In this document: positions 24,149 through 41,068 of the stretch, piece by piece
How positions within the stretch are numbered: position 1 is the first letter of the stretch
Layout of the letters: each line of letters starts with the position of its first letter
Source: Egibacter rhizosphaerae
GTDB taxonomy: Bacteria; Actinomycetota; Nitriliruptoria; Euzebyales; Egibacteraceae
DNA length: 64,000 nt
Assembly (NCBI RefSeq): GCF_004322855.1
Contig: NZ_CP036402.1
Span: 1,550,001-1,614,000, forward strand
Direction of reading: 5' to 3'
Made by a program: the position numbers and the translations under genes
The notes under the pieces: model-generated
Databases searched by the model: none
Told to the model about the DNA's origin: nothing
What the model saw: only the letters and a program-made list of their open reading frames with translations

Positions 24149-24157
24149 TACGAGCTA

Positions 24158-25011: not shown

Positions 25012-25427
25012 GGGGGGAAGGGAAGCCTTGTGTTGCCGCGCCTGGCGATGCCACGCCAGGCCTGGCCCCGCGAGGGCTCGCCTGGACGCGCCAAGCCTCG
25101 CCACGCGGAGGGGAGATGAGCCGGGCCGAGCCCCGATATGCCCTGCCACGCCGCGCCGATACGAGCCATGCCGCGCCAGAGGGGAGAAAAGCCATGACCC
25201 GCCGTGCCGAGCCGCGCCAGGCCATGCCAAGCCCAGACAGGTCGCGCCTGGCCAGGGGAAGGGGAGACGAGCCGGGCCTTGCCCCGCCGCGCCAAGCCAT
25301 GCCGCGCCTAGCCCCGCGGCGAGAAGGGAAGCCCAGCCCTGCCTCGGCAAGCCCGGCTAGCCAAACCAAGCCGCACCATGCGGGGACGCGCCTAGCCACG
25401 CCGGGAAAAGCCGAGCCGCAGCGAACC
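25012..25427. repeat. GCCNN pentamer array with purine-block superrepeats
   Basis: The interval is built almost wholly of the degenerate pentamer GCCNN (for example GCCATGCCAAGCCCAGACAG), read on the + strand. Purine-rich blocks such as GGGGAGATGAGCC interrupt it at about 25012, 25107, 25178, 25253, 25319 and 25401, spaced roughly 60-95 bases. Because the unit avoids stop codons, nearly all six frames are open and give the same five-residue pattern (Ala/Arg/Trp/Gly-rich). I therefore regard it as non-coding. The 24926-25011 flank holds only the leader of the downstream gene. Confidence 0.8.
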
Positions 25428-26285: not shown

Positions 26286-26331
26286 CACGGTGTCCTCCCG
26301 TTGCGGCTACCGGCTGGGGTTGTGGCGCGGG

Positions 26332-27396: not shown

Positions 27397-27697
27397 CGCT
27401 GCTCCCTTGGTCTGCCGGCTCGTACTTATGCGCGAAGTGGTCGGGGTCCACCGGCCACAGGTGAGTCACGTCGCCAGGCTTGCGAACGACCCAGTGCCCA
27501 ACCGGCACCGGCACCGGCCCCTGCGCGCCATCCTTGCCGGCGTCGATGGTCAACTCGTGCTGGCCGTCGTCGGGGCCACCTACGGGCGCGCTCACGTCGA
27601 AGTACGCCATGCCACCGAGGAATGAGGCGACCTCCTCGGGGTTGTCACCTCTCCACTGGATGGCTTCGACCTCTTGCGGCTTGGACACATAACGCAT
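27389..27697 (-). CDS. Conserved small phage protein (102 aa)
   Basis: ATG 27697 has AAGGAG upstream and overlaps the previous stop (TGATG). MRYVSKPQEVEAIQWRGDN at the N-terminus and a VGHWVVRKPGD segment followed by FAHKYEPAD match a small protein family common in phage early regions, of unknown role. It overlaps the next gene by 8 bases. Confidence 0.65.
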   Translation of the reverse strand: MRYVSKPQEVEAIQWRGDNPEEVASFLGGMAYFDVSAPVGGPDDGQHELTIDAGKDGAQGPVPVPVGHWVVRKPGDVTHLWPVDPDHFAHKYEPADQGSSDE

Positions 27698-27954
27698 CAC
27701 GCGTCTCCTTGAGAGCGGCTGATCGACACCGACGACCGCGACCCCAACCGCAACACCGACCCCCGCGGCGACCACACCCGCACCACCCCATTGCTCACCG
27801 CCACGCTCGCGACCTGCACCGGCGACATCGCATGCGGCGGGTCGTTGGGGTGCGGGTAGAGGTAGTCGCCGGGGCGGAGCTTGTGCGCGGCGACGCGCAT
27901 GCGTTGCTGCGTCTTGTGGTTGACGTTCGCGAGCGTCGCGTTCTCCTCGTTCAC
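27697..27954 (-). CDS. Small phage early protein (85 aa)
   Basis: GTG 27954 lies 6 bases from GGGAGGGG; GTG 27957 is the alternative. The protein is basic and beta-rich (LRPGDYLYPHPNDPPHAM, VVRVWSPRGSVLRL), perhaps a small SH3-like barrel. It is the first gene behind the promoter at 28.0 kb, with a short leader. Confidence 0.6.
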   Translation of the reverse strand: MNEENATLANVNHKTQQRMRVAAHKLRPGDYLYPHPNDPPHAMSPVQVASVAVSNGVVRVWSPRGSVLRLGSRSSVSISRSQGDA

Positions 27955-27977
27955 CACTGACCCCTCCCGTTCGGCTG

Positions 27978-28016
27978 ACAGGGCCACACCGTACAACGAC
28001 AGGGTGGGGCTGTCAA
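27978..28016 (-). promoter_or_regulatory. Early promoter with repressor operator (28.0 kb)
   Basis: On the minus strand TTGACA (28016-28011) and TACGGT (27993-27988) are 17 bases apart. The operator ACAGGG-N3-GGCTGT (27999-28013) overlaps the -35 box, and another ACAGGG (27978-27983) lies past the -10. Bases GTGG follow the -10 box. The whole arrangement is almost a copy of the promoter at 33.48 kb, so the same repressor should control both. It would drive the leftward genes from 27,954. Confidence 0.8.
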
Positions 28017-28024
28017 CGGTGGAA

Positions 28025-28058
28025 CGAAAGAAGCCCCCGCCGCCGAAGCGACGGGGGC
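28025..28058 (-). terminator. Intrinsic terminator with TTCG tetraloop, leftward
   Basis: Read on the minus strand, GCCCCCGTCGC pairs with GCGGCGGGGGC around a TTCG loop (28058-28033), an 11-bp stem with one G-T pair. TTCTTTC follows. It ends the transcript of the upstream leftward block (last gene 28,112), just before a fresh promoter at 28.0 kb. This is the only terminator in the window with a clear T-rich tail. Confidence 0.85.
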
Positions 28059-28111
28059 GTCAGCCCTGTAGTCGGGAGGGATCAGACCCCCGCCTACGCC
28101 GCGAAACAGTA

Positions 28112-28651
28112 TCACCCCGTCACGCGGGACGCAAGGCGCGGCCAGTCGACCTCGTCCACCACCCGCGACCGCTCACCATGCGGCGACGCCACAAGCCCAA
28201 ACGCCTCCCCCGCCAAATGCCACAACCACAACGCATCCGCCTCATCATCCGACCGTCCCCCATAACCCAGCCGATCGCGCGCCGCCGACACCATCGCCGC
28301 CTTGTCCGCGTTCCCATTGCCGGTCGCGTACTTCTTCAACCGCTTCGGCTGCACCACCACATACGGCACCCCGTGGCTGTGCAGCCACAACTTCACCACG
28401 CCCGACAGCTCGCCCAGCTCGTAGGCGCGGTTGGTGCGCAGATACGCCGCCCCCTCGATCACCGCGACGTCGAGCTGCAACGACGTGGCACTGTCGTCAT
28501 GCGGCGCGGCGACGCGGGCGAGTTCCCGCACGATGAAGTTGAGGCGCTGCGCGCCGCGATAGTCGCTGGGGGGTTTGACGAGCCCGTGGTGGGCGGGCGC
28601 GACGGCCCATCCGGTGCTGCGCAGGCTCGCGTCGATCGCGAGGATTCTCAT
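28112..28651 (-). CDS. RuvC-like Holliday-junction endonuclease (179 aa)
   Basis: RNase-H-fold nuclease of the phage RuvC type. D7 lies in RILAIDASLRSTGW, the second acidic residue is in AVIEGAAYL, and the final acidic pair is in RSDDEADALWLWHL. A basic segment (VQPKRLKKYATGNGNADKAA) typical of RuvC precedes it. It would resolve branched replication or recombination intermediates before packaging. ATG 28651 overlaps the upstream stop by ATGA. Length matches RuvC proteins (about 170). Confidence 0.82.
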   Translation of the reverse strand: MRILAIDASLRSTGWAVAPAHHGLVKPPSDYRGAQRLNFIVRELARVAAPHDDSATSLQLDVAVIEGAAYLRTNRAYELGELSGVVKLWLHSHGVPYVVVQPKRLKKYATGNGNADKAAMVSAARDRLGYGGRSDDEADALWLWHLAGEAFGLVASPHGERSRVVDEVDWPRLASRVTG

Positions 28652-28791
28652 CGGGGCCTCACTCTCACGCCGAGCGCGCGTCCGCAGTAGACGCATTCGC
28701 GGTGGTAGATCAGCCAGTTCGCGTCTTCGAAGCCGAGCATGGATATGCGGGTGTGGCGGAGTCCGAGTCGGCAGAGCAGCCAGTGCAGCAT
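28648..28791 (-). CDS. Zinc-ribbon microprotein (47 aa)
   Basis: ATG 28791 follows GGGGGTGAG, and its stop overlaps the RuvC start (ATGA). The peptide contains CVYCGRALG near the C-terminus and one further cysteine in LLCRLG. Overlaps and a ribosome site support it; function unknown. Confidence 0.55.
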   Translation of the reverse strand: MLHWLLCRLGLRHTRISMLGFEDANWLIYHRECVYCGRALGVRVRPR

Positions 28792-28796
28792 GCGTC

Positions 28797-28961
28797 TCAC
28801 CCCCTGTAGCCGCGGGCGCGCGCGGCGCGGCCCTGTTTCTCGGCGCGGCGTTTCGCCGTCTGGCGCGACTGCTTGTTGCTGGGGCTATACCGGTATTTCG
28901 CGCCTTGGCTTCCCCAGCGGTAGAAGGGCCCTTCGCTGTCGCGGCCTCGCTTCACCGGCAT
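28797..28961 (-). CDS. Small basic phage protein (54 aa)
   Basis: ATG 28961 encodes a Lys/Arg-rich peptide with the blocks MPVKRGRDSEGPFYRWGSQG and AKRRAEKQGRAARARGYRG. This pattern recurs in many actinobacterial phages. It ends five bases before the next start. High charge suggests nucleic-acid or ribosome contact. Confidence 0.65.
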   Translation of the reverse strand: MPVKRGRDSEGPFYRWGSQGAKYRYSPSNKQSRQTAKRRAEKQGRAARARGYRG

Positions 28962-28963
28962 CG

Positions 28964-29350
28964 CTATCCCCTTCCGATCACGTACACAGGGACCTCGGCT
29001 TTGCGGGCGCGCTCAACCATGTCGGCCGTGCCGCGGCCCAACTCGGGGTCCTCGTGGAACGCGAGGACGAGGTCAGGCCGCCCGCCCCGAAGCATTCGTT
29101 CGTTGCGGATGGGCCCCGCCGCGTTCCCGTGCGTGTCCCAATCGGCGGGGTATTGCTGGTGGCGGATGCCCGGGCCGCGCGGGATGAGTGCGGGCCAGGT
29201 CAAGGCGCACCTGTCAGCGCCCGGCGCGCCGCCTTCGATCACGGTGAACGTGTCGCCCCGCCCGTTGGCGATGGCGTACCACCCGTAGAGCGCCGCGTGG
29301 ACGGCCTGCTCGTCGTCCCAGTCGCGGCTTCCGCAGACGAGCACCCTCAC
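28964..29350 (-). CDS. SLOG/DUF2493 (YspA-like) nucleotide-binding protein (128 aa)
   Basis: The signature blocks of the DUF2493/YspA branch of the SLOG fold are present: VLVCGSRDWDD, VIEGGAPGADRCA, AGPIRNERMLRGGRPDLVLAF, and GTADMVERARKAEVPVYV. SLOG proteins bind nucleotides or ADP-ribose-like ligands; several relatives are sensors in conflict systems, but small phage versions have no firm role. GTG 29350 overlaps the upstream stop. Confidence 0.78.
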   Translation of the reverse strand: MRVLVCGSRDWDDEQAVHAALYGWYAIANGRGDTFTVIEGGAPGADRCALTWPALIPRGPGIRHQQYPADWDTHGNAAGPIRNERMLRGGRPDLVLAFHEDPELGRGTADMVERARKAEVPVYVIGRG

Positions 29351-29769
29351 CGCTCACCCCCCTGCAACGGCAACACCTCAGCGATGTCGCCAGCCCGCTC
29401 CGGCTCGGACACCTGCGGCAACAACTCCTCCTCCGTCGCCCGCCCCGACGACTGGTTCGCGCACTCCGCACACTCCGCGTCGTCACAACCGAGATGGCCC
29501 GCCTGCCAACGCCGCCACTGCTCCGGCGCGCAATCCGCGCACGGCACCATCCCGCCATCGCCGGGCATCCAGCCCGACCCGTCGCAGTCGCACACCTCAA
29601 CCGGGTCTCGACCGCGGTCGCGCAGCGCGCGCTCGACCATCATCTCGGCGAACCGGTCGCCCCACTCGCTCGCCTGCCGGGTCGTCTCGACACCGTCCAT
29701 GAGCCGCGCGTAGCGGTCGGGCGGCAGGGCCGCGTGCGCTTCGGCGAGCAGCGCGTCCAAGCGGCTCAC
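29347..29769 (-). CDS. Zinc-finger phage early protein (140 aa)
   Basis: GTG 29769 overlaps the upstream stop (GTGA). A DnaJ-like cysteine cluster lies at about residues 60-80 (VCDCDGSGWMPGDGG, then VPCADC), and another Cys-rich patch (CDDAECAEC) at about 97-105. Flanks are helical and acidic. Probably a structural zinc protein; no enzyme motif. Confidence 0.6.
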   Translation of the reverse strand: MSRLDALLAEAHAALPPDRYARLMDGVETTRQASEWGDRFAEMMVERALRDRGRDPVEVCDCDGSGWMPGDGGMVPCADCAPEQWRRWQAGHLGCDDAECAECANQSSGRATEEELLPQVSEPERAGDIAEVLPLQGGER

Positions 29770-30011
29770 GACGGCAGCTCCTCGCCTTGCGCGTGGCGGC
29801 GCGCCGCCCACGCCAACTCCTCCAACCGCTCATAGGTCGGCGGATGGCCGATGTGGAAATGCTCCGGGCAGAACACGCACCGGTACGCGCGGATCAGCTC
29901 GCCGGTGCGGTCGGACGCCTTGTCGGCCTCGAACTTCGCCTGGAACCGGTTCGGATACGCCGTCTTCGAGTCGCAGTGCGCAGCGCGGACCTGCTCGACG
30001 CTGCGCATCAT
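29766..30011 (-). CDS. Small zinc-finger phage protein (81 aa)
   Basis: ATG 30011 overlaps the upstream stop (ATGA); ATG 30008 is an alternative. CDSKTAYPNRFQAKFEAD, followed by YRCVFCPEHFHIGH, gives a Cys2His2-like finger. This CDxKxxY...YRCxxCxxxHxGH pattern is common in phage early genes. No function assigned. Confidence 0.65.
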   Translation of the reverse strand: MMRSVEQVRAAHCDSKTAYPNRFQAKFEADKASDRTGELIRAYRCVFCPEHFHIGHPPTYERLEELAWAARRHAQGEELPS

Positions 30012-30340
30012 CGACCCGCCCGCTCCCGCATCGCGCACACCACCGCGAGCCGATGCGCGAGCACCAGCCCCTGCATGTGCGCCTCCCGCATCACCTCGTC
30101 GGTGACGGCGCTCTCGTCGTCGCCGACGACCGCAGCCACGTGCTGGCCGGCGATGTCGGTGACCCAGTCGAACAACCGCAGGATCGCCTCGCGGTCGCTC
30201 TGATCGTCCAAGTGGATCCCGCGGGCGCGGGCGCGCTGTTCGTACTCGCGGTCGGACTGGTCGAGATGCGCGACCCACGACGCGTCGTCGAGCGGTTCCG
30301 CAGCGAGCACGGTGTCGGTGATCGTGGAAAGGTCCGCCAT
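30008..30340 (-). CDS. Hypothetical phage early protein (110 aa)
   Basis: ATG 30340 has AGGAGGG upstream. An all-helical acidic protein (ITDTVLAAEPLDDASWVAHL, then ILRLFDWVTDIAGQHVAAVV). It directly follows an operator-like site at 30.36 kb, so its expression may be under repressor control. No family known. Confidence 0.6.
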   Translation of the reverse strand: MADLSTITDTVLAAEPLDDASWVAHLDQSDREYEQRARARGIHLDDQSDREAILRLFDWVTDIAGQHVAAVVGDDESAVTDEVMREAHMQGLVLAHRLAVVCAMRERAGR

Positions 30341-30360
30341 CGTTCCCTCCTGTCGATCGT

Positions 30361-30375
30361 ACAGGGCTGACTTGT
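30361..30375 (-). promoter_or_regulatory. Degenerate repressor operator (30.36 kb)
   Basis: ACAGGGCTGACTTGT matches 10 of the 12 half-site bases of the ACAGGG-N3-CCCTGT operator. Read leftward, GTCACA could be a -35 box, and TACGAT (30362-30357) a -10 box only with non-standard spacing. It lies 20 bases before the 30,340 gene. Confidence 0.5.
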
Positions 30376-30377
30376 GA

Positions 30378-30848
30378 CTAGCGACCCGCGTCGGCGCGCT
30401 GACGCCGCCACACGGCCGCTGCGTACGCAGTGATGCTCTCCCCGAACGTGCGGTCCCCGTCGGCTTCGATCACGCGGATCGCCGCGTCAGCGACGAGCGT
30501 GAGCGTCACCGTCGCGCCTGCTTGCGTGATCAGCCGCCTCAGCGCCTTGCGGCCGCGCTGGCAGATCTCCTCCCCGGTGACGTCTTGCAGGAACTCAGCG
30601 ACGATGTGGGCAGCGAACAGCGGCCATCGTTCGCCGCGAGGGTCGACCGCGCCCGATTCGCGGGCGACGTCGAGCGCCCACCGGTACGAGTCGATGCGCG
30701 CGTCGAACCGCGGCGACGACCAGCCGTGATCATGCGCCCACTGCAGAATCTGGCCCGCCAGACGGCTCTCCCCCTGCGGCCTCGTCGGGAACCGACGGAT
30801 CGCCTCCATCGACGGCGGGTTCGCTGGCTTGTGCGCTGGCTGACTCAT
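30378..30848 (-). CDS. Hypothetical phage early protein (156 aa)
   Basis: ATG 30848 begins inside the 3' end of the upstream gene, a 119-bp overlap in another frame; a later in-frame ATG (MEAIRRFP) would shorten it. The protein is helical, with GESRLAGQILQWAHDHGW and GEEICQRGRKALRRLITQAG. No known domain. The conserved core probably starts after the overlap. Confidence 0.6.
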   Translation of the reverse strand: MSQPAHKPANPPSMEAIRRFPTRPQGESRLAGQILQWAHDHGWSSPRFDARIDSYRWALDVARESGAVDPRGERWPLFAAHIVAEFLQDVTGEEICQRGRKALRRLITQAGATVTLTLVADAAIRVIEADGDRTFGESITAYAAAVWRRQRADAGR

Positions 30849-31263
30849 CGGCGTCCTCCTCGTGGCGTTGCCGTCCGCGCGCCAGCCACCGGTTCGCCGC
30901 GTCGCGGCCGGTGCCGCACAACCCGGCGATCCGGTCGACGGCGACGCCGTGCTGGTCGACGGCGATGCGCACGAACTCGTCGCGCTCGGCGCACGCCGCG
31001 TAGTACGCGTCGCGCGCTCGGAACGCCTTGTCGGCGTGCTCGCGCGCCACGTCGAGCAGTTCGTCAGTGTCGAGCTGGCCCGTGTAGCCGCGCTGGCGCT
31101 TGCGCACCGGACATTCGTCGTCGTGCTGGCGCCTGCGAGCATCCGCGGTCTTCCAGTCGGGAAAGCCGCCGGTGAGATGGCCGCAGCCGGTCGGGGGGAA
31201 GCACCACACGCGCCAGTTGCCGCTCGCGTCTTCGCGGACGATCGCTCGCGGCTCGCCGCTCAC
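30730..31263 (-). CDS. Phage early protein with zinc ribbon and possible HTH (177 aa)
   Basis: GTG 31263 overlaps the upstream stop. Residues 20-55 hold CFPPTGCGHLTGG and HDDECPV, suggesting a zinc site. Residues 85-125 contain a helical segment (VAVDRIAGLCGTGRDAANRW) resembling a helix-turn-helix recognition region. The last 50 residues are acidic and Ser/Gly-rich. DNA binding is plausible. Confidence 0.6.
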   Translation of the reverse strand: MSGEPRAIVREDASGNWRVWCFPPTGCGHLTGGFPDWKTADARRRQHDDECPVRKRQRGYTGQLDTDELLDVAREHADKAFRARDAYYAACAERDEFVRIAVDQHGVAVDRIAGLCGTGRDAANRWLARGRQRHEEDADESASAQASEPAVDGGDPSVPDEAAGGEPSGGPDSAVGA

Positions 31264-31682
31264 GCGTCAGCCCCCTCGAACTCCTCGTCGGCTTCGGCGT
31301 CCTCGGCGACGCCGACCACGCCCTCCAGGTCCTGCGGGGTGACCTGCTCGGGATCGCCGCCGCGCGGCTCCTCGTCGCCGGGGAACGGCAACCGCTCGAC
31401 GCCTTCCTCGGCGTCTTCGAGCTGCTGGTGCTCGTCGCGTAGCTCGGCGATCGTCTTGCCGACCCGCTGGGGGTGGGTGACGTACACCTCGTTCGGGTCG
31501 ATCACGTGCAGGCGAGTGAGCAGCTTGTCGTGGATCTTGTGGGCGACCTCGGCGACCGTGCCGACCATGACGATCGCGATCTCGTCTTCGCGGTGCATCG
31601 GCTCGTGGCACGCGCCCGTACCGGACACGCGGATGCGGCCTCGGTGGACTTCTTCGCCTTCGAAGTCGGGGAACTTGTTCAT
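31260..31682 (-). CDS. Conserved phage early protein, beta-domain with acidic tail (140 aa)
   Basis: ATG 31682 with GGAGCC upstream. The first 75 residues (GRIRVSGTGACHEPMHREDE, MVGTVAEVAHKIHDKLLTR) form a small beta domain that recurs in actinobacterial phages. The C-terminal half is Glu/Asp-rich. It may be a ssDNA or accessory-factor binding protein, but nothing is established. Confidence 0.62.
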   Translation of the reverse strand: MNKFPDFEGEEVHRGRIRVSGTGACHEPMHREDEIAIVMVGTVAEVAHKIHDKLLTRLHVIDPNEVYVTHPQRVGKTIAELRDEHQQLEDAEEGVERLPFPGDEEPRGGDPEQVTPQDLEGVVGVAEDAEADEEFEGADA

Positions 31683-31695
31683 CGCGGCTCCTTTC

Positions 31696-31863
31696 CTATT
31701 GGTGCGGCAGTCCCGCGTACACCGCGACCCGGTCCGAGCCGCAGTGCCAGCACTGGGGGGACTCGCCCCACGGGGTGCGCCACGCCGCCGAGCAGTCGCG
31801 GCAGCGATAGCCGGTGGTGCCACCCGGGTCGGGTGGCTGTCCGAACGTTGCGTGTCCGTGCAT
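31696..31863 (-). CDS. Double zinc-ribbon small protein (55 aa)
   Basis: ATG 31863 overlaps the upstream stop (TGATG). Two CxxC pairs (YRCRDCSAAW and QCWHCGSDRV) form a classic zinc ribbon. One of several such microproteins in this operon; likely a nucleic-acid or protein adaptor. Confidence 0.65.
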   Translation of the reverse strand: MHGHATFGQPPDPGGTTGYRCRDCSAAWRTPWGESPQCWHCGSDRVAVYAGLPHQ

Positions 31864-32045
31864 CACCAGTCCTTCGCGTAGCCGAGCCAGGTCGGCGCTT
31901 CGTCGGGGTCGTCGGGGTCGGTGTACAGGTCCTCGTGCTCGATCGGGTCGTATTCGTCGCGCGCGCCGGGCGGCCACGTCTCGGGGTCGCCGGGGCCCGG
32001 CATGGTCTGCGGGTTCATGTCGAATAGGCGTTGGCGGCGCGGCAT
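31863..32045 (-). CDS. Small acidic phage protein (60 aa)
   Basis: ATG 32045 gives a Pro/Asp-rich peptide (DPETWPPGARDEYDPIEHED) ending WLGYAKDW. Coupled by TGATG to the zinc-ribbon gene downstream. No recognised family; composition suggests disorder. Confidence 0.5.
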   Translation of the reverse strand: MPRRQRLFDMNPQTMPGPGDPETWPPGARDEYDPIEHEDLYTDPDDPDEAPTWLGYAKDW

Positions 32046-32047
32046 CG

Positions 32048-32269
32048 CTAACCCGCCTCCCGCTCGACGGGGTCGGCGCGGTGCGCCGCGTGCAGGCGCA
32101 CCAGGTCGGCGGGCGCGCCGAGCAGTGCGCCGACTCGCTCGGCGGAGCCGGAGATCACCACTCGCGTGTCGCCCTCGAAGAATCGGACGAACACGGTTCC
32201 GTCGGATTCGGTTTGGACTTCGGGCTCGTCCGCTTCTCCCGCGAAGATGTGCGTCGAGTTGTGCGGCAT
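32048..32269 (-). CDS. Small phage protein, beta-rich (73 aa)
   Basis: ATG 32269. Strands SDGTVFVRFFEGDTRVVISG are followed by a helix (AERVGALLGAPADLVRL). Similar small proteins occur in phage early operons but lack a known role. It ends three bases before the next leftward start. Confidence 0.6.
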   Translation of the reverse strand: MPHNSTHIFAGEADEPEVQTESDGTVFVRFFEGDTRVVISGSAERVGALLGAPADLVRLHAAHRADPVEREAG

Positions 32270-32290
32270 CGCTGATCCCTCCCTCTTGGG

Positions 32291-32626
32291 CTAGTGGGGG
32301 TACTGCATGCGCTTGCGGGCCTGCTCGTTGAGGTAGTCGGCGAGCGGTTCGAGGGGCACTCGGACCGCGCCGCCGAGGTCGACGCTGGGGATCTCTCCGT
32401 TCTTGATGAGCTTGCGGATGTGGCTGTCGGAGATGCCGAGGCGTTCGGCGGCGTCGGTGATCTTGATGGCCCACTCCCCGCCGCTTGTTGGTGGGAACGG
32501 GTCGGCGGGGAGTGGGTGGTCCGCCTCACTGGGGTTGTGGGGGTTGGTGAGGCGGAGTTCGATGACGATGCGTTGTTCGGTGTTGGTGGTGGGGGTGGGG
32601 AGTGAGACGACGTTGTCGGCGGTCAT
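32291..32626 (-). CDS. Excisionase/MerR-like helix-turn-helix protein (111 aa)
   Basis: After a disordered N-terminus, residues 50-100 form an HTH_17-type domain: WAIKITDAAERLGISDSHIR, KLIKNGEIPSVDLGG, VRVPLEPLADYLNEQA. This is the fold of excisionases and small MerR-like regulators. In an early operon next to the Cro-like gene it could be the directionality factor (Xis) for the integrase at 34.2 kb, or a second regulator. Confidence 0.72.
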   Translation of the reverse strand: MTADNVVSLPTPTTNTEQRIVIELRLTNPHNPSEADHPLPADPFPPTSGGEWAIKITDAAERLGISDSHIRKLIKNGEIPSVDLGGAVRVPLEPLADYLNEQARKRMQYPH

Positions 32627-32666
32627 GGCGTCTTCTCCCCGTCGAGCGCGGCGCGGAGGAGGGTCA

Positions 32667-32888
32667 TTAGTCGTCACCCCCGTCGTCGCCCAACTCCGAC
32701 CGGGCGGCGGCGACACGGCACGGAGACTCCACGTAGTGCGCCTGGCAGCGCCCGTTGTGGTCGTACCTGCATTGGGGATCGTCCATCTCAAGGAGCGCGC
32801 GCAGGTGGCGCTCCAATCGAGCGGCGCGGTCGCGGTGGAAGTCCTCAAACCAGCGGGCGTTCTCTACGGCGTCGTCGGGGGCGGTCAC
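32667..32888 (-). CDS. Hypothetical phage early protein (73 aa)
   Basis: GTG 32888 overlaps the upstream stop. A helical N-terminal half (WFEDFHRDRAARLERHLRAL) is followed by a Cys/His patch (QCRYDHNGRCQAHYVESPCR) that may bind zinc. Function unknown. Confidence 0.6.
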   Translation of the reverse strand: MTAPDDAVENARWFEDFHRDRAARLERHLRALLEMDDPQCRYDHNGRCQAHYVESPCRVAAARSELGDDGGDD

Positions 32889-33100
32889 CGGTCACCCCCG
32901 AACAACGTCGGCTCACACTCCGCAACCGTCGTCAACCGCAACCACTGGTGACACCGACCACACCGCCAAAACGTCACATGACCGAGATCCGGCGCGAACC
33001 CGGCGCCCTCACGCACCATCGGCGCCTGGTGGCACTCGGGCGGCGGATCGTTCGGCGACCGAGTGCCGGTGCGACGGATGCGCGGCAGCCGCGGCCTCAT
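32885..33100 (-). CDS. Zinc-ribbon phage protein (71 aa)
   Basis: ATG 33100 overlaps the Cro-like gene stop (TGATG). CHQAPM and FWRCGRCHQW provide Cys/His ligands for one zinc ribbon. Second gene of the early operon. A role in DNA or RNA transactions is likely but not defined. Confidence 0.6.
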   Translation of the reverse strand: MRPRLPRIRRTGTRSPNDPPPECHQAPMVREGAGFAPDLGHVTFWRCGRCHQWLRLTTVAECEPTLFGGDR

Positions 33101-33432
33101 GACCCACCCCCGAGCGGGTCGGACAGCGACCCCGAACCCACCACCGGCGGGTCGTCGTCGCGCGGCACCGCGTCCCGCAACCCCTGATCCGTGTCGAGCC
33201 GGTTGTCCTCGTAGGCGAACAGCTCGTAGACGTTGACGCCGAGGACGTTGGCGATCGCGATGCGCCGCTTGTCGACGGGCGCGTACTCGCCGGCTTCGAT
33301 CTCCGACAAGACCTGCTGCGAGAACGGCTCGCCGAGTTCTTCGGCGACGAGGGGGGCCATCTTGCGTTGCGAGAGGCCCTTGCGGAGTCGGCACCGGTGG
33401 ATGCGGGTGCCCCATACGGCGGGGTAGTCCAT
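33097..33432 (-). CDS. Cro/XRE-type helix-turn-helix regulator, first gene of the early operon (111 aa)
   Basis: HTH_3 domain at residues 8-65: RIHRCRLRKGLSQRKMAPLV, then GEPFSQQVLSEIEAGEYAPV (recognition helix around QQVLSEIE), then RIAIANVLGVNVYELF. The C-terminus is acidic and disordered. ATG 33432 has GAGGG upstream and lies about 36 bases from the predicted transcript start. It faces away from the repressor gene at 33.6 kb across shared operators, which is the layout of a lambda-type genetic switch with this protein as Cro. Confidence 0.78.
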   Translation of the reverse strand: MDYPAVWGTRIHRCRLRKGLSQRKMAPLVAEELGEPFSQQVLSEIEAGEYAPVDKRRIAIANVLGVNVYELFAYEDNRLDTDQGLRDAVPRDDDPPVVGSGSLSDPLGGGS

Positions 33433-33474
33433 TGGGTTCCCTCGTGCGACAGGCGGAATCGCTAACAGGTCCAC

Positions 33475-33503
33475 ACCGTAGCTTCACAGGGTAGCCCTGT
33501 CAA
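33475..33503 (-). promoter_or_regulatory. Main early promoter with palindromic operator
   Basis: On the minus strand TTGACA (33503-33498) and TACGGT (33480-33475) are exactly 17 bases apart. A perfect inverted repeat, ACAGGG-TAG-CCCTGT (33486-33500), overlaps the -35 box and spacer. GTGG and ACCTGT follow the -10 box. A repressor bound here would block RNA polymerase, shutting off the leftward early operon in the lysogen. Confidence 0.85.
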
Positions 33504-33587
33504 GAGGTGTCCCGCCGCACACGTTTGGCCGCGTCGACCGGTCGCCGGGGGGATGCGCGGGTCGCCGGGATGCGTCACACTCCCCCT

Positions 33588-33602
33588 ACAGGGACACCCT
33601 GT
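33588..33602 (+). promoter_or_regulatory. Palindromic operator upstream of the repressor gene
   Basis: ACAGGG-ACA-CCCTGT is a perfect inverted repeat of the same half-site as at 33486-33500, 102 bases away. It lies 33 bases before the repressor start and probably overlaps the repressor promoter (autoregulation). The exact -10/-35 boxes for the rightward transcript are not clear. Confidence 0.75.
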
Positions 33603-33634
33603 CACGTAGGCGGGAGCGAAAGGGAGAACACCAA

Positions 33635-33946
33635 GTGGCGACACTCGACCCGAAACAGATGGGCGACCACATCAAGCGCGCCCGAACCAAGAAGGAATGG
33701 TCACAAGACGCCCTCGCGCAACGCGTCGGCGTGACCCAGCAAACCATCCACGACTGGGAAAGCGGCGCCCACTCGCCGCGCCTCACCCACCTCACCGCGA
33801 TCTCGAACGCGCTCGACGTCAGCCTCGACGAGCTGGTCTACGGCGAGATCGACGCCGCTGCCCGCCGCGACCGCGAACTCGCCGAAGTCGTCACCGCCAT
33901 GAACGACCTCAAAGAGCGCGTCGAACGTCTCGGCGGAGAGCCGTGA
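33635..33946 (+). CDS. XRE-family phage repressor candidate (103 aa)
   Basis: GTG 33635 with AAAGGGAG upstream. HTH_3 domain at residues 9-65: HIKRARTKKEWSQDALAQRV, then GVTQQTIHDWESGAHSPRLT (recognition helix), then HLTAISNALDVSLDELVYGE. A short C-terminal coiled coil (LAEVVTAMNDLKERVERLG) may dimerise it. There is no LexA-like S24 peptidase domain, so induction would not be by classical self-cleavage. Divergent from the Cro-like gene and upstream of integrase, it is the best candidate for the lysogenic repressor that binds ACAGGG-N3-CCCTGT. Confidence 0.78.
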   Translation: MATLDPKQMGDHIKRARTKKEWSQDALAQRVGVTQQTIHDWESGAHSPRLTHLTAISNALDVSLDELVYGEIDAAARRDRELAEVVTAMNDLKERVERLGGEP

Positions 33947-34088
33947 GATGCGCGTCCAGCAGCCTCGTGTCCTCAGCGACCTCGGCGACCTCGCCGGACA
34001 CGTCCTCGCCCGCCGCCGCCCGCCGTTCCAGCTCGCCCGCACGCGCCGCCAGGTAGTCGACCGCGGCTCGGATCTCGTCAACGCCCAT
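33909..34088 (-). CDS. Small helical protein, convergent with and overlapping the repressor gene (59 aa)
   Basis: ATG 34088 has AAGGGAGCGGGG directly upstream. The product is amphipathic and helical (GVDEIRAAVDYLAARAGELE, RRAAAGEDVSGEVAEVAEDT). Its last 38 bases overlap the repressor gene on the other strand. A + strand frame over the same interval lacks a ribosome site and has unlikely composition, so I prefer this reading. Transcription from here would be antisense to the repressor. Confidence 0.5.
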   Translation of the reverse strand: MGVDEIRAAVDYLAARAGELERRAAAGEDVSGEVAEVAEDTRLLDAHLTALRRDVRRAL

Positions 34089-34173
34089 CCCCGCTCCCTT
34101 CGCAATGCCTCAACCACACGAGTCATTCGTAGCCAAACAGGACTAGCCCGTGAAGTCGAGAGGGTGATCCAGA

Positions 34174-35364
34174 TTGTCTAGACGCAGAGTGGCCGGATCG
34201 GGCTCTCTGTATCAGCGCGGAGACGGCCGGTGGGTCGGCCAAGTGTCGGTCGGCGGCAGAGGCAGCCGGCAGCGCCTCACGGTCTACGGCGCGACCGAGG
34301 CGGAGGCGGAACGCAAGCTCACCGACGAGCGCCTGCGCGCCGAACGCGGCGCGCCGCCCGACGCGGCGCGCCAGACGGTCGCCCAGTATCTGCACTGGTG
34401 GCTGCACACCGACCTCGCCGGTCAGGTCGCCCGCGGTGACATCGCGGCGGGCACGTGGCGCTACTACGAGGGCCGCGCGCGCCTGTACATCACCCCGGAG
34501 GTCGGCGAGGTGCCGCTGCGCAAGCTCGCGCCGCAACACGTCGCGCATCTGCTCGCCGCGCCGAGGCTCGCGCACCTGGGGCAGCGCAGCCGATTCCAGG
34601 TGTACGCGACGCTGCGGGCCGCCTTGTCGCGCGCGGAACGGCTCGACCTCGTCGACCGCAATCCCGCCGACCGCGTCGAGCCGCCGAAGGTGCGCCGCGA
34701 ACGCGTGCGCGCGCTCACCGAAGCGGAGGCGCGCGCGATCTTGGATGCGGTCAGCGGCCATCGTCTCGAAAGCCTCGTGCGCGTCGGCCTGTCCACCGGT
34801 CTGCGGCCCGGTGAGATCGGAGGTCTCGACTGGAACGACGTCGACCTTGAGTCGGGCACGCTGCATGTGCGGTGGACGCTCACCCGCGGGCACGAGGCGG
34901 TCGACGCGCAGCCCTACGGGCGACAAGGGTCGCGGCGAGGCCGCAAACCGGTGAAGACGGAGGGCAGCGCCGCGCCGGTGCCGCTGACCTCGACGCTGGT
35001 GGATGTGCTGCGTCGTCACCGGGTCGCGCAGGCCGAGGAACGGCTCGCGTCGCAGCGGTGGCGCGAGCCGCCGTGGCCGCTGGTGTGGGCCGGCCCGGAG
35101 GGCGGCCCGATCGTTCCGTCGGAGTTGTCGGAGTGGGTCGGCGACGTGTGCGAGGCGGCGGGGGTGCGGCGCATGACGGCGCACGAGTTGTTGCGGCATG
35201 GAGCGGCGACGTTGCTGGTGGCGCAGGGCGTCGAGATGCGCGTGATCAGCGAGATCTTGCGGCACACTTCGGCGTCGACGACGTCGGACATCTACGCGCA
35301 TGTGGACCGGGAGGTCGCGCGCGAGGCGGTCGGCAGGCTCGACGGGATGCTTGGGGGGCATTGA
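34174..35364 (+). CDS. int: Tyrosine integrase with unusual catalytic spacing (396 aa)
   Basis: TTG 34174 follows GAGAGGGTG. The N-terminus has the AP2-like arm-binding start (GSGSLYQRGDGRWVGQVSVG), then a SAM-like core-binding domain (VAQYLHWWLHTDLAGQVARG). The catalytic domain shows R211 (STGLRPGEIGG), H337/R341 in TAHELLRHGAAT, ILRHTSASTT, and nucleophile Y374 in DIYAHVD. The usual H-x-x-R is here H-x-x-x-R because of an extra Leu codon (TTGTTG). It catalyses integration at the Flp pilin gene and, with an excisionase, excision. The extra residue may impair activity. Confidence 0.9.
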   Translation: MSRRRVAGSGSLYQRGDGRWVGQVSVGGRGSRQRLTVYGATEAEAERKLTDERLRAERGAPPDAARQTVAQYLHWWLHTDLAGQVARGDIAAGTWRYYEGRARLYITPEVGEVPLRKLAPQHVAHLLAAPRLAHLGQRSRFQVYATLRAALSRAERLDLVDRNPADRVEPPKVRRERVRALTEAEARAILDAVSGHRLESLVRVGLSTGLRPGEIGGLDWNDVDLESGTLHVRWTLTRGHEAVDAQPYGRQGSRRGRKPVKTEGSAAPVPLTSTLVDVLRRHRVAQAEERLASQRWREPPWPLVWAGPEGGPIVPSELSEWVGDVCEAAGVRRMTAHELLRHGAATLLVAQGVEMRVISEILRHTSASTTSDIYAHVDREVAREAVGRLDGMLGGH

Positions 35365-35594
35365 TGCTCCGAACGGTGGGCGCGGGGGTCGCCGGGTTCG
35401 CGCTCGGCTGGGTCGCGGTCACGGTCGCGTATTGGATCGTGGACGTGGCGGTGGTTATGGTGGTGGGCTTCGAGTTCGGCGGGTCGCTCGCGGGGGTCTT
35501 CGGGTTCCTGTCGCTGGTCGGCGGTGTTGTGGGGGCGGTGGTGATGGTGCGGCGGTCTCGGGGGTTGCGGCGCGGGTCTCATTGGCCCCAGTAG
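35364..35594 (+). CDS. Small two-helix membrane protein downstream of integrase (76 aa)
   Basis: ATG 35364 overlaps the integrase stop (TGATG), so it is probably co-expressed from the prophage. Two to three hydrophobic segments (VGAGVAGFALGWVAVTVAYW, then VVMVVGFEF and LAGVFGFLSLVGGVVGAVVM) are followed by a basic tail. Lysogen-expressed small membrane proteins next to repressor and integrase genes often block superinfection; that is inference here. Confidence 0.6.
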   Translation: MLRTVGAGVAGFALGWVAVTVAYWIVDVAVVMVVGFEFGGSLAGVFGFLSLVGGVVGAVVMVRRSRGLRRGSHWPQ

Positions 35595-35830
35595 GCGCGG
35601 GCGTAGTGCTCGGCGAGGTCGTCGCGCACCCATTCGGGTTGTTGTCTGGCGACGGTCTCGAACTGGTCGGCGGCGTTGGCGAGCCCTTGGGGGTCGGGCC
35701 ATTCGGCGCGGGCCGTCTCGCCTGCTTGCTTGGCGGTCCGCGCGCATCGTTGGGTGGTGCTGTGCGGCCGGCTGGTGTTGCAGTGTTGGCAGGGCGGTGG
35801 GGGCTCGTCGTCTTTCTTGCGGCGCGCCAT
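35579..35830 (-). CDS. Small phage protein with Cys/His cluster (83 aa)
   Basis: ATG 35830 overlaps the upstream stop (TGATG). MARRKKDDEPPPPCQHCN, then RPHSTTQRC suggest a small zinc site. The C-terminal half is helical (LANAADQFETVARQQPEW). Its last 16 bases overlap the convergent membrane-protein gene. Last gene of the right-end leftward block. Confidence 0.6.
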   Translation of the reverse strand: MARRKKDDEPPPPCQHCNTSRPHSTTQRCARTAKQAGETARAEWPDPQGLANAADQFETVARQQPEWVRDDLAEHYARAYWGQ

Positions 35831-36447
35831 CACACGGCTCCCTCGACCTCGACGCGCCACAGCCCTTGTCGGCCGCGCATGGGGATCGGCTCGTCGAGCG
35901 GTTCGGGGTCGGCGAGCGTCCAGTGCCAGGCATCGGGCTCGGCGAAGCGGGAGCAGTAGCGAAGCTCCGACCAGTTCGGCCCCGTCTCGGTCAGGCAATC
36001 GTCGGCGTGGTGGCAGCCGGTGACCTTCACCGAGCCGAGCAACACGCCGCGCAGGCTGCGATCTTGGAACCGTGCCGCCTCCTTCACGGGAGACAACAGC
36101 GGCCCGACGCCGCGACGACGCGTCTCGCCGCTGATTACGCGCGCCCACTCCATGACCGCTTGCGTGCCGGCCGGGTCGTGCTGTTGCCCCGCGTGGATCC
36201 AGAGGCGGAACGGGAACGAACCGTCCGGTTCGCAGCCCTCTAGGTGGGGCCGCAGACTCCTCGCGGGAATGTGCGCCCGATCATCATGTGAGCCTGGTAC
36301 CGGCTCCGCGGATCGACCGCCACACTCCCGGCACCTCGCGTACTGCGGCAGCGTGGACGGCACCGGCCACGACCTGTTCTCCACCGGCTTCACGCCAGCC
36401 ATGATGAGAGACGCCCACGGCTGGCGGACAGTCAACGCCCGTTCCAT
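35830..36447 (-). CDS. ASCH-domain protein (205 aa)
   Basis: The N-terminal ALTVRQPWASLIMAGVKPVE and a following NRSWP are the signature of ASCH domains, which have an RNA-binding PUA-like fold. LWIHAGQ and GVLLGSVKVTGCHHADDC continue the domain. A Cys insert (YARCRECGG) is unusual. The C-terminus (GRQGLWRVEVEG) closes the barrel. Phage ASCH proteins are common but undefined; relatives bind modified nucleosides or RNA. Confidence 0.75.
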   Translation of the reverse strand: MERALTVRQPWASLIMAGVKPVENRSWPVPSTLPQYARCRECGGRSAEPVPGSHDDRAHIPARSLRPHLEGCEPDGSFPFRLWIHAGQQHDPAGTQAVMEWARVISGETRRRGVGPLLSPVKEAARFQDRSLRGVLLGSVKVTGCHHADDCLTETGPNWSELRYCSRFAEPDAWHWTLADPEPLDEPIPMRGRQGLWRVEVEGAV

Positions 36448-37091
36448 CACGCGCCACCTCCGTGCAGGTCGAGCATGCGCTTGGCTTCTTCGAGGCGGCG
36501 GAACGCTTCGGGGTTGCCGCCAGCGTCGGGATGCAGCCGCTTCGCGGCCTCGCGCCACGCGTTCTCGCGCACGCCCGGCGAGGTGACCAACGAGTCCGGA
36601 AGGTCCGAACCGCTCCATCCGGAGGCCGAGGCGAGCCAGCGGGCAGCCATCTCGACCGTGGCGAACCGCGGCTCGTCGCTCTCCCCGGAGCCGAGTTCGC
36701 GGAACCCGGCGTACTGGCGGCCGGCCATCACCCCGTGCCGGTCGGCGGCGCGGAGGGCTTCCATGGAGAGGCCGATCGCGCGGACGTTGTCCTGCCAGCG
36801 CGTGTACCGGTCAGTGCTCCAGCTCAGACGGCCGTGGTCGGTGTCGGGCACCACGACGGTCACGCCCGGGTGGTCCGTCTGAGCTTTCGCCCGGGGCCAC
36901 CCGTCGATGCGGAGCTGCGTGTCGTCGAGGGCGAGCTGGAACACCAGGTCGCGGCCGCCGATCATGCGGGCCTCGCGCCCGAGCAGTTCCTGCGTGGCGG
37001 TCCAGCCCGCGGAAAAGGGAGCGCGGCGGCGCTGGCCGGGTTCGCGGAGCTGGCCGGGCCAGTTGGTGAGGGGGCGGCAGACGATCCTCAC
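36447..37091 (-). CDS. Phage protein with C-terminal J-like domain (214 aa)
   Basis: GTG 37091 has GGAGGG upstream. The last 55 residues form a J-domain-like helical hairpin with the HPD signature (EAAKRLHPDAGGNPEAFRRL). The first 120 residues have LVFQLALDDTQLRIDGWPRA and a Trp-rich stretch with no family match. The J-part could recruit host DnaK. Stop overlaps the ASCH gene start. Confidence 0.72.
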   Translation of the reverse strand: MRIVCRPLTNWPGQLREPGQRRRAPFSAGWTATQELLGREARMIGGRDLVFQLALDDTQLRIDGWPRAKAQTDHPGVTVVVPDTDHGRLSWSTDRYTRWQDNVRAIGLSMEALRAADRHGVMAGRQYAGFRELGSGESDEPRFATVEMAARWLASASGWSGSDLPDSLVTSPGVRENAWREAAKRLHPDAGGNPEAFRRLEEAKRMLDLHGGGA

Positions 37092-37339
37092 GTGTCCCTC
37101 CTGTGCTGGCTGGCGTGCTCGCAGGTCGCGAAGTGCGACGTGTACAGACTCGGGGTGTCGTCGGCGCGCGCGGCGGCGTTGTCCGCGTACACGTCAGCGA
37201 GGTAGGAGCCGGTGCTGCCCACGTAGGTGAGCGCGACGTTGCCGCGCTCGTCGTCGGGCTCGGCGTCGACTGGCATCGCCTTCCCGTTGACGGTCTCGAC
37301 CCACACGATCGGTGCTCGGCAGCTTCGACAGGTCGCCAT
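37088..37339 (-). CDS. Zinc-ribbon phage protein at the right end (83 aa)
   Basis: ATG 37339. MATCRSCRAPIVWVETVNGK is the opening of a zinc ribbon found in many phage small proteins; a later CEHASQH gives further ligands. It is the outermost recognisable phage gene, 101 bases from the inferred attachment junction. No promoter for this leftward block was identified with confidence. Confidence 0.7.
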   Translation of the reverse strand: MATCRSCRAPIVWVETVNGKAMPVDAEPDDERGNVALTYVGSTGSYLADVYADNAAARADDTPSLYTSHFATCEHASQHRRDT

Positions 37340-37357
37340 CGGTCTCACCCTTTCCCT

Positions 37358-37381
37358 TCGTGGCAGCACTCGTGCCAGCAC
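37358..37381 (+). repeat. Tandem 12-bp repeat beside the phage end, possible integrase arm sites
   Basis: TCGTGGCAGCAC (37358-37369) is followed directly by TCGTGCCAGCAC (37370-37381), one mismatch. It lies between the last phage gene and the host junction. Integrase arm-binding sites are often short direct repeats near the attachment core, so this is a candidate. Confidence 0.4.
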
Positions 37382-37418
37382 GAACCACACATCGGCGGCG
37401 TCCTTCCTGGTCAGCGGT

Positions 37419-37538
37419 CTACGGCGGCTCGTGGGGGCGGAGCATCGCGTACTCCGCGGCCTGGGCGCCGGACTCGTCCGCGGGGTCGAGCCGGCGCCGC
37501 AGTGCGCGCACCGGCGCGAGAACGGTGGTTCGCACCAT
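37419..37538 (-). pseudogene. flp: Flp-type (Tad) pilin gene truncated by prophage insertion (39 aa left)
   Basis: ATG 37538 follows an excellent AAGGAGG. The peptide has a basic leader (VRALRRRLDPADES) and the type IVb prepilin site G24/AQAAEY (Glu+5, Tyr+6), then AML. Where the hydrophobic pilin helix should follow, the sequence becomes RPHEPP and stops. It sits directly after the TadB-TadC gene, where the pilin gene lies in actinobacterial tad loci. A full pilin should be 55-70 residues. The missing 3' end, and probably TadE-like genes, should lie beyond the phage left end. Excision could restore the gene. Confidence 0.72.
37436..37464. other. Inferred right attachment junction (attR)
   Basis: On the minus strand the Flp pilin frame is normal up to about 37440 (codons for EYAML), then switches to RPHEPP and stops. 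The phage/host crossover is therefore at or slightly inside this interval. The identity segment shared with attL cannot be seen, because the left end is outside the window. Confidence 0.6.
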
Positions 37539-37701: not shown

Positions 37702-38838
37702 TCAGCTGCCGAACGCGGTCCACAGCACGGGCGGCACCACGCCGAGCACGAACGCGGGCAGGGTGAACAGCGTCGTCGGGAACACGAGCGTGACCTGCAC
37801 CCGCTCGACGGCCTCCTCGGCGGCGGCGCGGCGCTCGTCGCGCAGATCCGCCGCGAGGCGTCGCACCGGCTCCGCGGTACCCGCGCCCCACCGGTGACCG
37901 ACGTCGAGCACCGCACCCAAGGGTGCGAGTGGGCCTCCTTCGAACGCCTCGGCGGGGCTCCAGCCGGCCCGCAGACGACGCGCCGCACGCGCCAGTGGTG
38001 GGCCGGCGGCCGGTGGGACCAGATCGCTCGTGAGGTCGAGCGCCCCGGCCGGGTCGAGTCCGGCGTCGAGGCCGATCGCGACGAGCTCGCACGCTTCGGC
38101 GGTTCCCCCGCCCACCCGTGCTCCGGGCGTGTCGGCCCTCACCGGGCGGGAGGCGCCCCAGGCGACGCCCACGCCGGCCGCGAGCCCGGTGAGCGGCCCC
38201 ACCAGCGCCGCACCGGCGAACGCCACGGGCGTCGCGAACGCCACACCGCGCCCCCACCGCGAACGCCCGACCGGCGGCGCGAGGGGATCCGCCCGCTCGC
38301 CCGCCGTGGCGGCACGTCGGACCAGGCGGGCCGACCAAGCCCACCCCGTGGCCAACAACGCCGCCGCAGCCACTCCCGCCAGCGCTCCCAGCGGTGTGGC
38401 GTAGAACCCCAGTGAGCCGGGATCGAGGCCGGTGAGCAGCACCCAGGCACCCAGCGGTACGAGCACGAGGACCCGGGCCGACACACGGGCCTGCGCGGTC
38501 CGCACCCGCAGCAACCGATCCAGCTGGGAGCGGTCCCGCACGGCGCCGAGCACCTGGTCGACCGCCGCGACGCCGCCCACTCCCGCGCGCTCGGCCACCG
38601 CGAGCGCACGTACCAGGAGGCGAGCCGCCCCGTCGCCGGGCACCCGTTCCGCGGCTTCGGCCAACGGCACGCCGAGCCGAGCCGAGCTGGCCGCACCCGA
38701 CAGCGCGACCTGGCCACCCGACCCCGGTGACGTGGTCGCCTCCGCCAGCGCGGCCGCAGGGGCGGCCCCCGCGGCGAGTGCGGCACGGACCGCGGTCAGC
38801 TCCGCGGTCGTGGGTTCGGCCCGATCGCGCCGAGCCAT
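37702..38838 (-). CDS. Fused TadB-TadC-like pilus platform protein (378 aa)
   Basis: Two T2SSF-type domains lie in one chain. The first (about 5-165) carries LGVPLAEAAERVPGDGAARL and ends in two membrane helices (VLVLVPLGAWVLLTGL, LAGVAAAALLATGWAW). The second (about 185-378) has ACELVAIGLDAGLDPAGALD and a C-terminal membrane pair (FPTTLFTLPAFVLGVVPPVL). Separate tadB and tadC genes are usual, so this looks like a fusion. It anchors the TadA ATPase in the inner membrane. ATG 38838 overlaps the tadA stop (TGATG). Confidence 0.78.
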   Translation of the reverse strand: MARRDRAEPTTAELTAVRAALAAGAAPAAALAEATTSPGSGGQVALSGAASSARLGVPLAEAAERVPGDGAARLLVRALAVAERAGVGGVAAVDQVLGAVRDRSQLDRLLRVRTAQARVSARVLVLVPLGAWVLLTGLDPGSLGFYATPLGALAGVAAAALLATGWAWSARLVRRAATAGERADPLAPPVGRSRWGRGVAFATPVAFAGAALVGPLTGLAAGVGVAWGASRPVRADTPGARVGGGTAEACELVAIGLDAGLDPAGALDLTSDLVPPAAGPPLARAARRLRAGWSPAEAFEGGPLAPLGAVLDVGHRWGAGTAEPVRRLAADLRDERRAAAEEAVERVQVTLVFPTTLFTLPAFVLGVVPPVLWTAFGS

Positions 38839-39962
38839 CAACCGCCCCGCAGCCACAGTCGGCGCGCGCCGAGCTCCCCGTCGCCGCGCCGCTGGACCTC
38901 GGCGACCTCGACCACCCCGCGGGCGCCGTCGCGCTCGCGCCCGAGCACCACGAGCAGGTCGAGGGCCACTGCCAGCTGCGCCCGGACGGCGTCGAGCGGC
39001 AGGCCCGCGAGCAGCGCCATGCCCTCCATGCGCACCAGCGCCTCGTCGGCCGCCCGTGCGTGCACGGTCGTCATGCAGCCCTCGTGGCCCGTCGCGAGCG
39101 CCTGGAGCACGTCGACGAGCTCCACACCTCGGACCTCTCCCACCACGATCCGGTCCGGCCGCATGCGCAGCGCCTGGCGCACGAGGTCGTGGATCGTGGT
39201 CTCGCCCACCCCCTCGGCGTTGGCCTCCCGCGTCTCCAGCCGCACCGCGTGCGGGCAACGGGGCCGCAGCTCCGGCGCGTCCTCGACGAGGACGACCCGC
39301 TCGTCCGCACCGACGTCGTCGACCAACCGCCCGAGCAACGTGGTCTTGCCGGCCCCGGTACGCCCGCAGCACACGATCGCGCGCCGCTCGGCCACCGCGT
39401 CACGCAACAGGTCGCGGACGTCCTCGGGCACCGCACCGCTGGAGGTGAGGTCGTCCCAGCTCATCGCGACCGGCGCGAAGCGGCGGATCGCGACGAGCGG
39501 GCCGTCCGGAGCGAGCGGCGGGAGGACCGCATGCAGGCGGCTGCCGTCCGGAAGGCGCGCATCCACGTGGGGGCGGGCCCGGTCGAGGCGGTAGCCGAGC
39601 GGCCCGACGACGCGCAGGACCGCCTGGTGCACCGCATCACCGTCGTCGAACGTGACGTCGGTGCGCTCGAGCCGTCCGGCCCGTTCCACCCAGACCTCCC
39701 GAGGGCCGTTCACCAGGACGTCGGTGACGGCGGGGTCGCGTAGCAGCGGTTCGAGCGGACCGAGCCCGGCGAGCTCGTCAGTGAGCTCGCGGACGAGGCG
39801 GGCGAGTTCGTCATGGGGCAGCAGCAGACCCTCGCTGCGCACGGCGCGGGCGACGGCGGCACGGACGGCAGGAACGCGGTCCGCTCCGCTGCCCGCTCGG
39901 GCCACCTCCGGGTCCTCGGCCACGCGCCGTCGGATGCGCGCGAGGGTGGGTGCCGCGGTCAT
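38838..39962 (-). CDS. tadA: TadA/CpaF pilus-assembly ATPase (374 aa)
   Basis: Type II/IV secretion ATPase: Walker A GRTGAGKTTLL near residue 200, Asp box VVLVEDAPELRPRCPHAVRL, Walker B region PDRIVVGEVRGVELVDVLQA, and HEGCMTTVHARAADEALVRM with the catalytic His box. The N-terminal LGPLEPLLRDPAVTDVLVNG is typical of CpaF. It powers Flp pilus extension at the inner membrane. ATG 39962 overlaps the upstream stop (ATGA). The locus is interrupted downstream by the prophage. Confidence 0.9.
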   Translation of the reverse strand: MTAAPTLARIRRRVAEDPEVARAGSGADRVPAVRAAVARAVRSEGLLLPHDELARLVRELTDELAGLGPLEPLLRDPAVTDVLVNGPREVWVERAGRLERTDVTFDDGDAVHQAVLRVVGPLGYRLDRARPHVDARLPDGSRLHAVLPPLAPDGPLVAIRRFAPVAMSWDDLTSSGAVPEDVRDLLRDAVAERRAIVCCGRTGAGKTTLLGRLVDDVGADERVVLVEDAPELRPRCPHAVRLETREANAEGVGETTIHDLVRQALRMRPDRIVVGEVRGVELVDVLQALATGHEGCMTTVHARAADEALVRMEGMALLAGLPLDAVRAQLAVALDLLVVLGRERDGARGVVEVAEVQRRGDGELGARRLWLRGG

Positions 39963-41068
39963 GACGTCCTCGCGCCGCCATCGCGGGTCGAAGTCGGCGG
40001 GCTCGAGCCGCGCACGGGCAGGAGCCGTCGCAACGCAGCCAGCCATGAGCCCGGCAGCGCACCCGGCACCCGGCCGCGCACACCGGCCACCCCGACCCGT
40101 GCCGACCACGGCACCGAGACGACGGCGTTCCTCCCCCGCTCGCCACGCACCGCGCGCCGGGACAGCGGCCCATCACCCACGAGCACGAGCGGGTCACCCG
40201 TCCGAGGTGCCCGCACCAACCGGCCATCGGGTCGGGCCACCCGCAGCCGGCTCCCGGACCCGCGCCCCGGGACCGCGGCTTCCCCGGCCAGCTCCTCGGT
40301 GTCGGCGTCCTCTGCGACGCCATCGCCCTCGGGACCCGCATCGACCACCACCAGGTCGGCGGGCCACCCGGCGACCCGGCGGACCGGACGGCCGTCACCG
40401 AGCAGGCGCAAGCGCTCGACGCCGGGAACGGCGACCGCGAGCGTCTCGATCTCCTGCCCGGCACCGGCATCGAGCGCGGCCACGGCACGCCCGCCGGGGC
40501 CCTGCCACCGGTCCCGGCCGGCGAGCGCGAGCAGGTCATCCCCGCCGCAGACCACCACCGAGTGCCCCGCCCACGCGGTCAGCCCCGCGAGCGCGAGGGC
40601 GACCGTCGAGGCGCCGACCCCGCCGCCGATCCCGGTGATCACCAACAGTCGGGGCCCACCCGGCTGCACGTGATCCGGCGACCGACCATGCGGGGTCGAG
40701 CCACCTCCGCCGGCTGCGGTTCGCTCCCCGTGCGTCGACGGACGTCCGGTCCGTTCCGCGAGCGTGGCCAGACGCTCGCGATCCTCGGGCCACCCCAGCG
40801 CGTCGAGCGCGCCCGCGTCCAATGCCGTTCGCACCGCCTCGGCGTCGGCGACCCCGTCGATCACGACCACGGCGGGACCGTCCCTTTCGGACACGCGAGC
40901 CGGTGCGACCAGGAACAGCGCCGGGGAGGGCGGCCCTTCGGGGGTCACGACCTGCCAACCCAAGTGTTGCTCGACCCAGCCCGCCACCTCGTCGTACAAG
41001 GGTGGTTCGAGGCACACGGCCACGGGGAGGGCGGCGACGGCACTGCGTCCCGGGTCGGGCTCCCCCAT
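39959..41068 (-). CDS. TadZ/CpaE (Ssd-like) ParA-type localisation protein (369 aa)
   Basis: An N-terminal receiver-like domain (residues 10-110, AVVVIDGVADAEAVRTALDA) is followed by a MinD/ParA-like domain whose P-loop is TGIGGGVGASTVALALAGL. The later DLVVVDAGPEGD is a Walker B/A' segment. In mycobacteria the Rv3660c (Ssd) gene holds the same place, ahead of TadA. It should position the pilus machine at a cell site. The C-terminus is Pro/Arg-rich. First gene of the tad operon, divergent from the HAD gene. Confidence 0.8.
   Translation of the reverse strand: MGEPDPGRSAVAALPVAVCLEPPLYDEVAGWVEQHLGWQVVTPEGPPSPALFLVAPARVSERDGPAVVVIDGVADAEAVRTALDAGALDALGWPEDRERLATLAERTGRPSTHGERTAAGGGGSTPHGRSPDHVQPGGPRLLVITGIGGGVGASTVALALAGLTAWAGHSVVVCGGDDLLALAGRDRWQGPGGRAVAALDAGAGQEIETLAVAVPGVERLRLLGDGRPVRRVAGWPADLVVVDAGPEGDGVAEDADTEELAGEAAVPGRGSGSRLRVARPDGRLVRAPRTGDPLVLVGDGPLSRRAVRGERGRNAVVSVPWSARVGVAGVRGRVPGALPGSWLAALRRLLPVRGSSPPTSTRDGGARTS

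Follow-up and report, generated by a model that had tools for sequence, protein, structure and literature searches.

The prophage at comK in Listeria acts as a reversible gene switch. The phage phi-Sa3, inserted in hlb of Staphylococcus aureus, is likewise a phage-regulatory switch (PMC6597384). The closest precedent for the locus described here is provided by the comYC prophages of Streptococcus and Lactococcus (PMC4774983), temperate phages that lie inside the coding sequence of the major pilin of a type 4 filament and inactivate the gene. These cases concern the Com pilus of Firmicutes, recur in several species and are tied to loss of transformation, and it has been proposed that the phages thereby avoid removal by transformation. 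Among Tad-type pili, those of the actinobacterium Micrococcus luteus mediate natural transformation (PMC6916266), and those of Caulobacter are required by phages (PMC7911016). No report of a prophage in a tad or flp pilin gene was found in the open-access literature.

The locus examined here belongs to the single-contig, 4.64-Mb genome of Egibacter rhizosphaerae and lies within a stretch of 64,000 nucleotides (NZ_CP036402.1, positions 1,550,001 to 1,614,000), the whole of which is referred to as the window (Table 1). A complete temperate prophage has very probably split the major-pilin gene of a Tad locus, with loss of the pilus, and precise excision would restore the gene; the insertional inactivation and restorability of the pilin gene are well supported. 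Like the comYC prophages, this is a temperate phage inside the coding sequence of the major pilin of a type 4 filament, and relatives with an empty site exist, but it concerns a Tad (type IVc) pilin in an actinobacterium and is a single case. With the comK and hlb prophages it shares a split gene whose frame is exactly restorable, whereas excision of those two is regulated and has a phenotype and the Egibacter prophage has been read from its DNA. The host locus resembles the Tad loci of the actinobacteria Bifidobacterium breve and M. luteus (PMC6916266) in its extension ATPase, platform proteins, minor pilins and very small major pilin, but its pilin is DUF4244-like and interrupted by a prophage.

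Table 1. Features of the prophage, its ends and the interrupted Tad locus (window positions unless another source is named)
Feature	Position	Strand	Remarks
attL core, copy of AGCATCGCGTACTCC	genome C1:1540205-1540219 = L003:10205-10219		15 bp identical to attR
Pilin 3' part, TadE-like and TadG-like genes	L003:10204 down to 8958	-	Beyond left prophage end
Right-hand part of the prophage (37.4 of 47.2 kb)	1..37440	.	Remainder at genome C1:1540220-1550000, outside window
HTH_17 protein, candidate excisionase	32291..32614	-	HTH_17 5.7e-11; phrog_66 excisionase 1e-7, longer frame
Second repressor-like HTH protein	33097..33474	-	phrog_4 7e-7
Phage repressor-like HTH protein	33635..33946	+	phrog_8 1e-14
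Tyrosine integrase	34174..35364	+	Phage_integrase 5e-20; phrog_1 1e-62
Phage block between integrase and attR	35579..37341	-	Zinc-ribbon-like, phrog_9210 and weakly ASCH-like frames
5' part of split flp/DUF4244-type pilin gene	37419..37538	-	Last codons RPHEPP phage-derived
attR core AGCATCGCGTACTCC	37441..37455	.	Identical attL copy outside window
TadBC platform protein(s)	37702..39372	-	T2SSF 5e-16
TadA/CpaF-like ATPase	38838..40109	-	T2SSE 8.5e-52
TadZ-like protein	39959..41068	-	Weak Pfam CbiA; place conserved in relatives

At the right end of the prophage, the first-pass annotation had described a 39-residue frame with a ribosome site and a prepilin motif, broken where phage DNA starts, and this description was borne out. 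The 39-aa frame (MVRTTVLAPVRALRRRLDPADESGAQAAEYAMLRPHEPP) has an AAGGAGG ribosome site 5' of its ATG and carries the prepilin motif GAQAAEYAML, and its homology to pilins ends with the 15-bp attR core (AGCATCGCGTACTCC), which codes for the E-Y-A-M-L part of that motif. Placement of the prophage within a Flp-type pilin gene, as well as loss of the hydrophobic helix in the lysogen, is supported by the sequence and by about a dozen relatives in which the arrangement is uninterrupted. The position of the pilin behind TadZ-TadA-TadBC is supported by Pfam matches (T2SSE and T2SSF) and by the conserved placement of TadZ in relatives.

The left phage end was found 9.8 kb beyond the window, in DNA fetched to its left, with the same 15 bp, a continued pilin frame and the TadE-like gene that had been anticipated there, as well as a TadG-like gene. 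The two core copies are 47,236 bp apart, giving a prophage of 47.2 kb. Rather than being broken at attL, the pilin frame runs on to ...GGVSAAACGGLVEIFTEPDVLRIIVDAVVDTLGDTVGGWF*, and joining of the host flanks at the core yields MVRTTVLAPVRALRRRLDPADESGAQAAEYAMLGGVSAAACGGLVEIFTEPDVLRIIVDAVVDTLGDTVGGWF, a 73-aa pilin (computed junction) of the length found in relatives, in keeping with the earlier proposal that precise excision restores the pilin in frame. The joined pilin is directly followed by the TadE-like gene and then by the TadG-like gene, both separated by the prophage from the other tad genes, and no decay was seen in the pilin frame or downstream. The joined pilin matched DUF4244 at 17.9 bits (E of 0.002) against a Pfam cut-off of 27, and the TadE (16.8 bits) and TadG (21.4 bits) matches were both under the curated Pfam cut-offs. 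A different gene restored at attL by phage sequence was also considered and was rejected, as, judged by eye, the frame on the phage side lacks both a signal peptide and a clear ribosome site.

In phage-free relatives, the pilin and its neighbors are contiguous and no prophage is present there, the gene order being HAD-TadZ-TadA-TadBC-pilin-TadE-TadG-helicase as far as the contigs reach. Identity between the joined pilin and the best seven relatives, drawn from the same family and order, ranges from 52 to 68%; Euzebya pacifica is one relative within the order, and an uninterrupted pilin with its neighbors is also present in another family of the order. From the G of the motif to the stop, the joined pilin comprises 50 residues, a length shared by nine intact relative pilins, and the invariant alignment columns are G24, Q26, A27, E29, Y30, A31, M32, and G35. 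Two relatives from another family, G023 and G027, share all 15 bases of the core. Contig G014:C162 (L092:6505-6571) stops 14 bases past the core position inside its own pilin gene, possibly hinting at strain variation at this site; no second contig in the assembly shares the end. Two contigs of G018 (L093 and L094, corresponding to C135 and C25) share approximately 120 identical bases inside the pilin, with one running to TadG and the other to ethanolamine-utilization-like genes, not TadBC; this branching is probably an assembly overlap.

The host locus carries the components of a Tad/Flp (type IVc) system, namely, a TadA ATPase, a T2SSF platform, TadE/TadG-like pseudopilins, and a small G-x4-E-Y pilin, an assignment for which the TadE, TadG, and pilin scores are under Pfam cut-offs and synteny is conserved. 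No other Flp_Fap or DUF4244 protein over threshold, and no second EY-type pilin over threshold, was identified in the genome. A second, divergent Tad-like locus is present at 2.362 to 2.369 Mb (genome C1:2362133-2369317, L120:6133-13317), encoding a CpaB/RcpC-like SAF protein, a protein in the TadZ position, TadA, two T2SSF proteins, several TadE- and TadG-like proteins, and a small hydrophobic pilin-like protein (EERGEGVVSVAIAVLIIAF...). The first-pass annotation had regarded a second intact flp gene beside tadC as evidence against its own reading; the pilin-like protein corresponds loosely to such a gene but lacks the E-Y motif. Type IVa-like ATPases and N-methyl-type pilins are encoded near 4.21 Mb, and the genome also encodes a ComEC-type protein and one prepilin peptidase. 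Because the divergent Tad-like locus and the type IVa pilus encoded near 4.21 Mb are present, pilus loss would be limited to one Tad system: the claim that lysogeny turns off the Tad pilus has to be restricted to the split-pilin system, in that lysogeny should remove this pilus and not all filaments, and the other two systems may take over some of its functions. In the host DNA of the window, a selenocysteine tRNA gene was predicted at 55401-55495 (+ strand).

The prophage looks complete, as genes for a terminase, a major head protein, and an endolysin are present in addition to the integrase, excisionase-like, and repressor genes, and direct att repeats enclose integrase, structural, and lysis genes, as in a temperate tyrosine-integrase prophage. 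Viral contigs searched for the attP pattern and for the terminase gave no match. The phage block between the integrase and attR is oriented like the tad operon, and the attR junction showed no terminator-like site; it is possible that this block is transcribed by read-through from the host operon. To place the integrase, 44 relatives with flanking sequence were taken from the class, the phylum, and other collections; they belong to the same family, share 26 to 41% identity with it, and include integrases of tRNA-integrating prophages and elements. In 25 of the 44, the 3' end of the integrase gene has a tRNA gene no more than 600 bp away (at 70 to 564 bp, mostly at 70 to 370 bp), whereas the nearest tRNA gene to the prophage integrase is 20 kb away and attR, 2.1 kb from the integrase, is in a protein gene. 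None of the 44 is inserted at a tad locus, and no integrase clade with recurrent tad-pilin insertions in several species was found among them. As the relatives are mostly beside tRNA genes and the prophage integrase is not, the simplest interpretation is that its target, formerly a tRNA gene, would now be a protein gene.

The 15-bp match is weak by itself, with 19% of random 120-bp stretches matching likewise in the left 97 kb, and it was dropped as sole proof since such repeats are too common in GC-rich DNA here. If it were all that linked the two ends, the 39-aa frame might be taken for a chance ORF or a phage gene merely resembling a prepilin start. This is practically inconceivable, because the frame is preserved with its exact length, pilin homology flanks the junction on both sides, and synteny in many relatives contradicts it. 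The undecayed pilin frame and downstream genes, together with the excisionase-like gene, would also suit active lysogeny, in which the prophage would be a regulated, reversible switch of the comK kind, excising so that the host makes its Tad pilus. The computed excision product does contain an intact reading frame of the relatives' length; however, a recent insertion explains the undecayed frame equally well, only one lysogen is known at the pilin site, with no second lysogen and no conserved occupancy in relatives, and no integrase relative lies at any tad locus. We consider such a switch very doubtful, and it is hardly to be expected that a temperate phage of this Euzebya-order actinobacterium controls the Tad pilus via reversible integration into the prepilin motif; if true, Tad pili would join the surface structures that prophages control as a new class.

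The likeliest reading is that the integrase, once directed at a tRNA gene, was retargeted to a conserved coding site and that pilus loss is a by-product or serves the phage and is not a host-controlled switch. Tentatively, the phage might disarm a DNA-uptake pilus and so escape removal by transformation, as could be suggested by the major pilin being the target, by an integrase family found elsewhere mostly at tRNA sites, and by the ComEC-type protein, although the type IVa pilus and the other Tad-like locus could import DNA. It seems rather unlikely that the benefit lies in superinfection exclusion, through removal of a pilus on which competing phages depend: Tad pili are a phage receptor in Caulobacter, but we know of no pilus-dependent phage for the host lineage. 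The precedents go as far as making transformation avoidance and phage exclusion plausible.

Overall, the tyrosine integrase very probably inserted the 47.2-kb prophage at the 15-bp site in the prepilin motif of the Tad (type IVc) major pilin. The lysogen encodes a 39-aa stub without the membrane and assembly helix, with tadE and tadG moved 47 kb from the rest of the operon, and for both reasons the split-pilin Tad pilus is expected to be absent. With precise excision, the 73-aa pilin gene would be recreated exactly; the ability to excise, the loss of piliation, and the accompanying phenotype are predictions from this arrangement. The pilin-disrupting prophage strategy known for competence pili is extended here to actinobacterial Tad pili. 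As the core falls where the pilin gene is most conserved and has identical counterparts in two relatives of another family, other hosts could be struck at the same site, and transformation avoidance and phage exclusion become testable in a new group.
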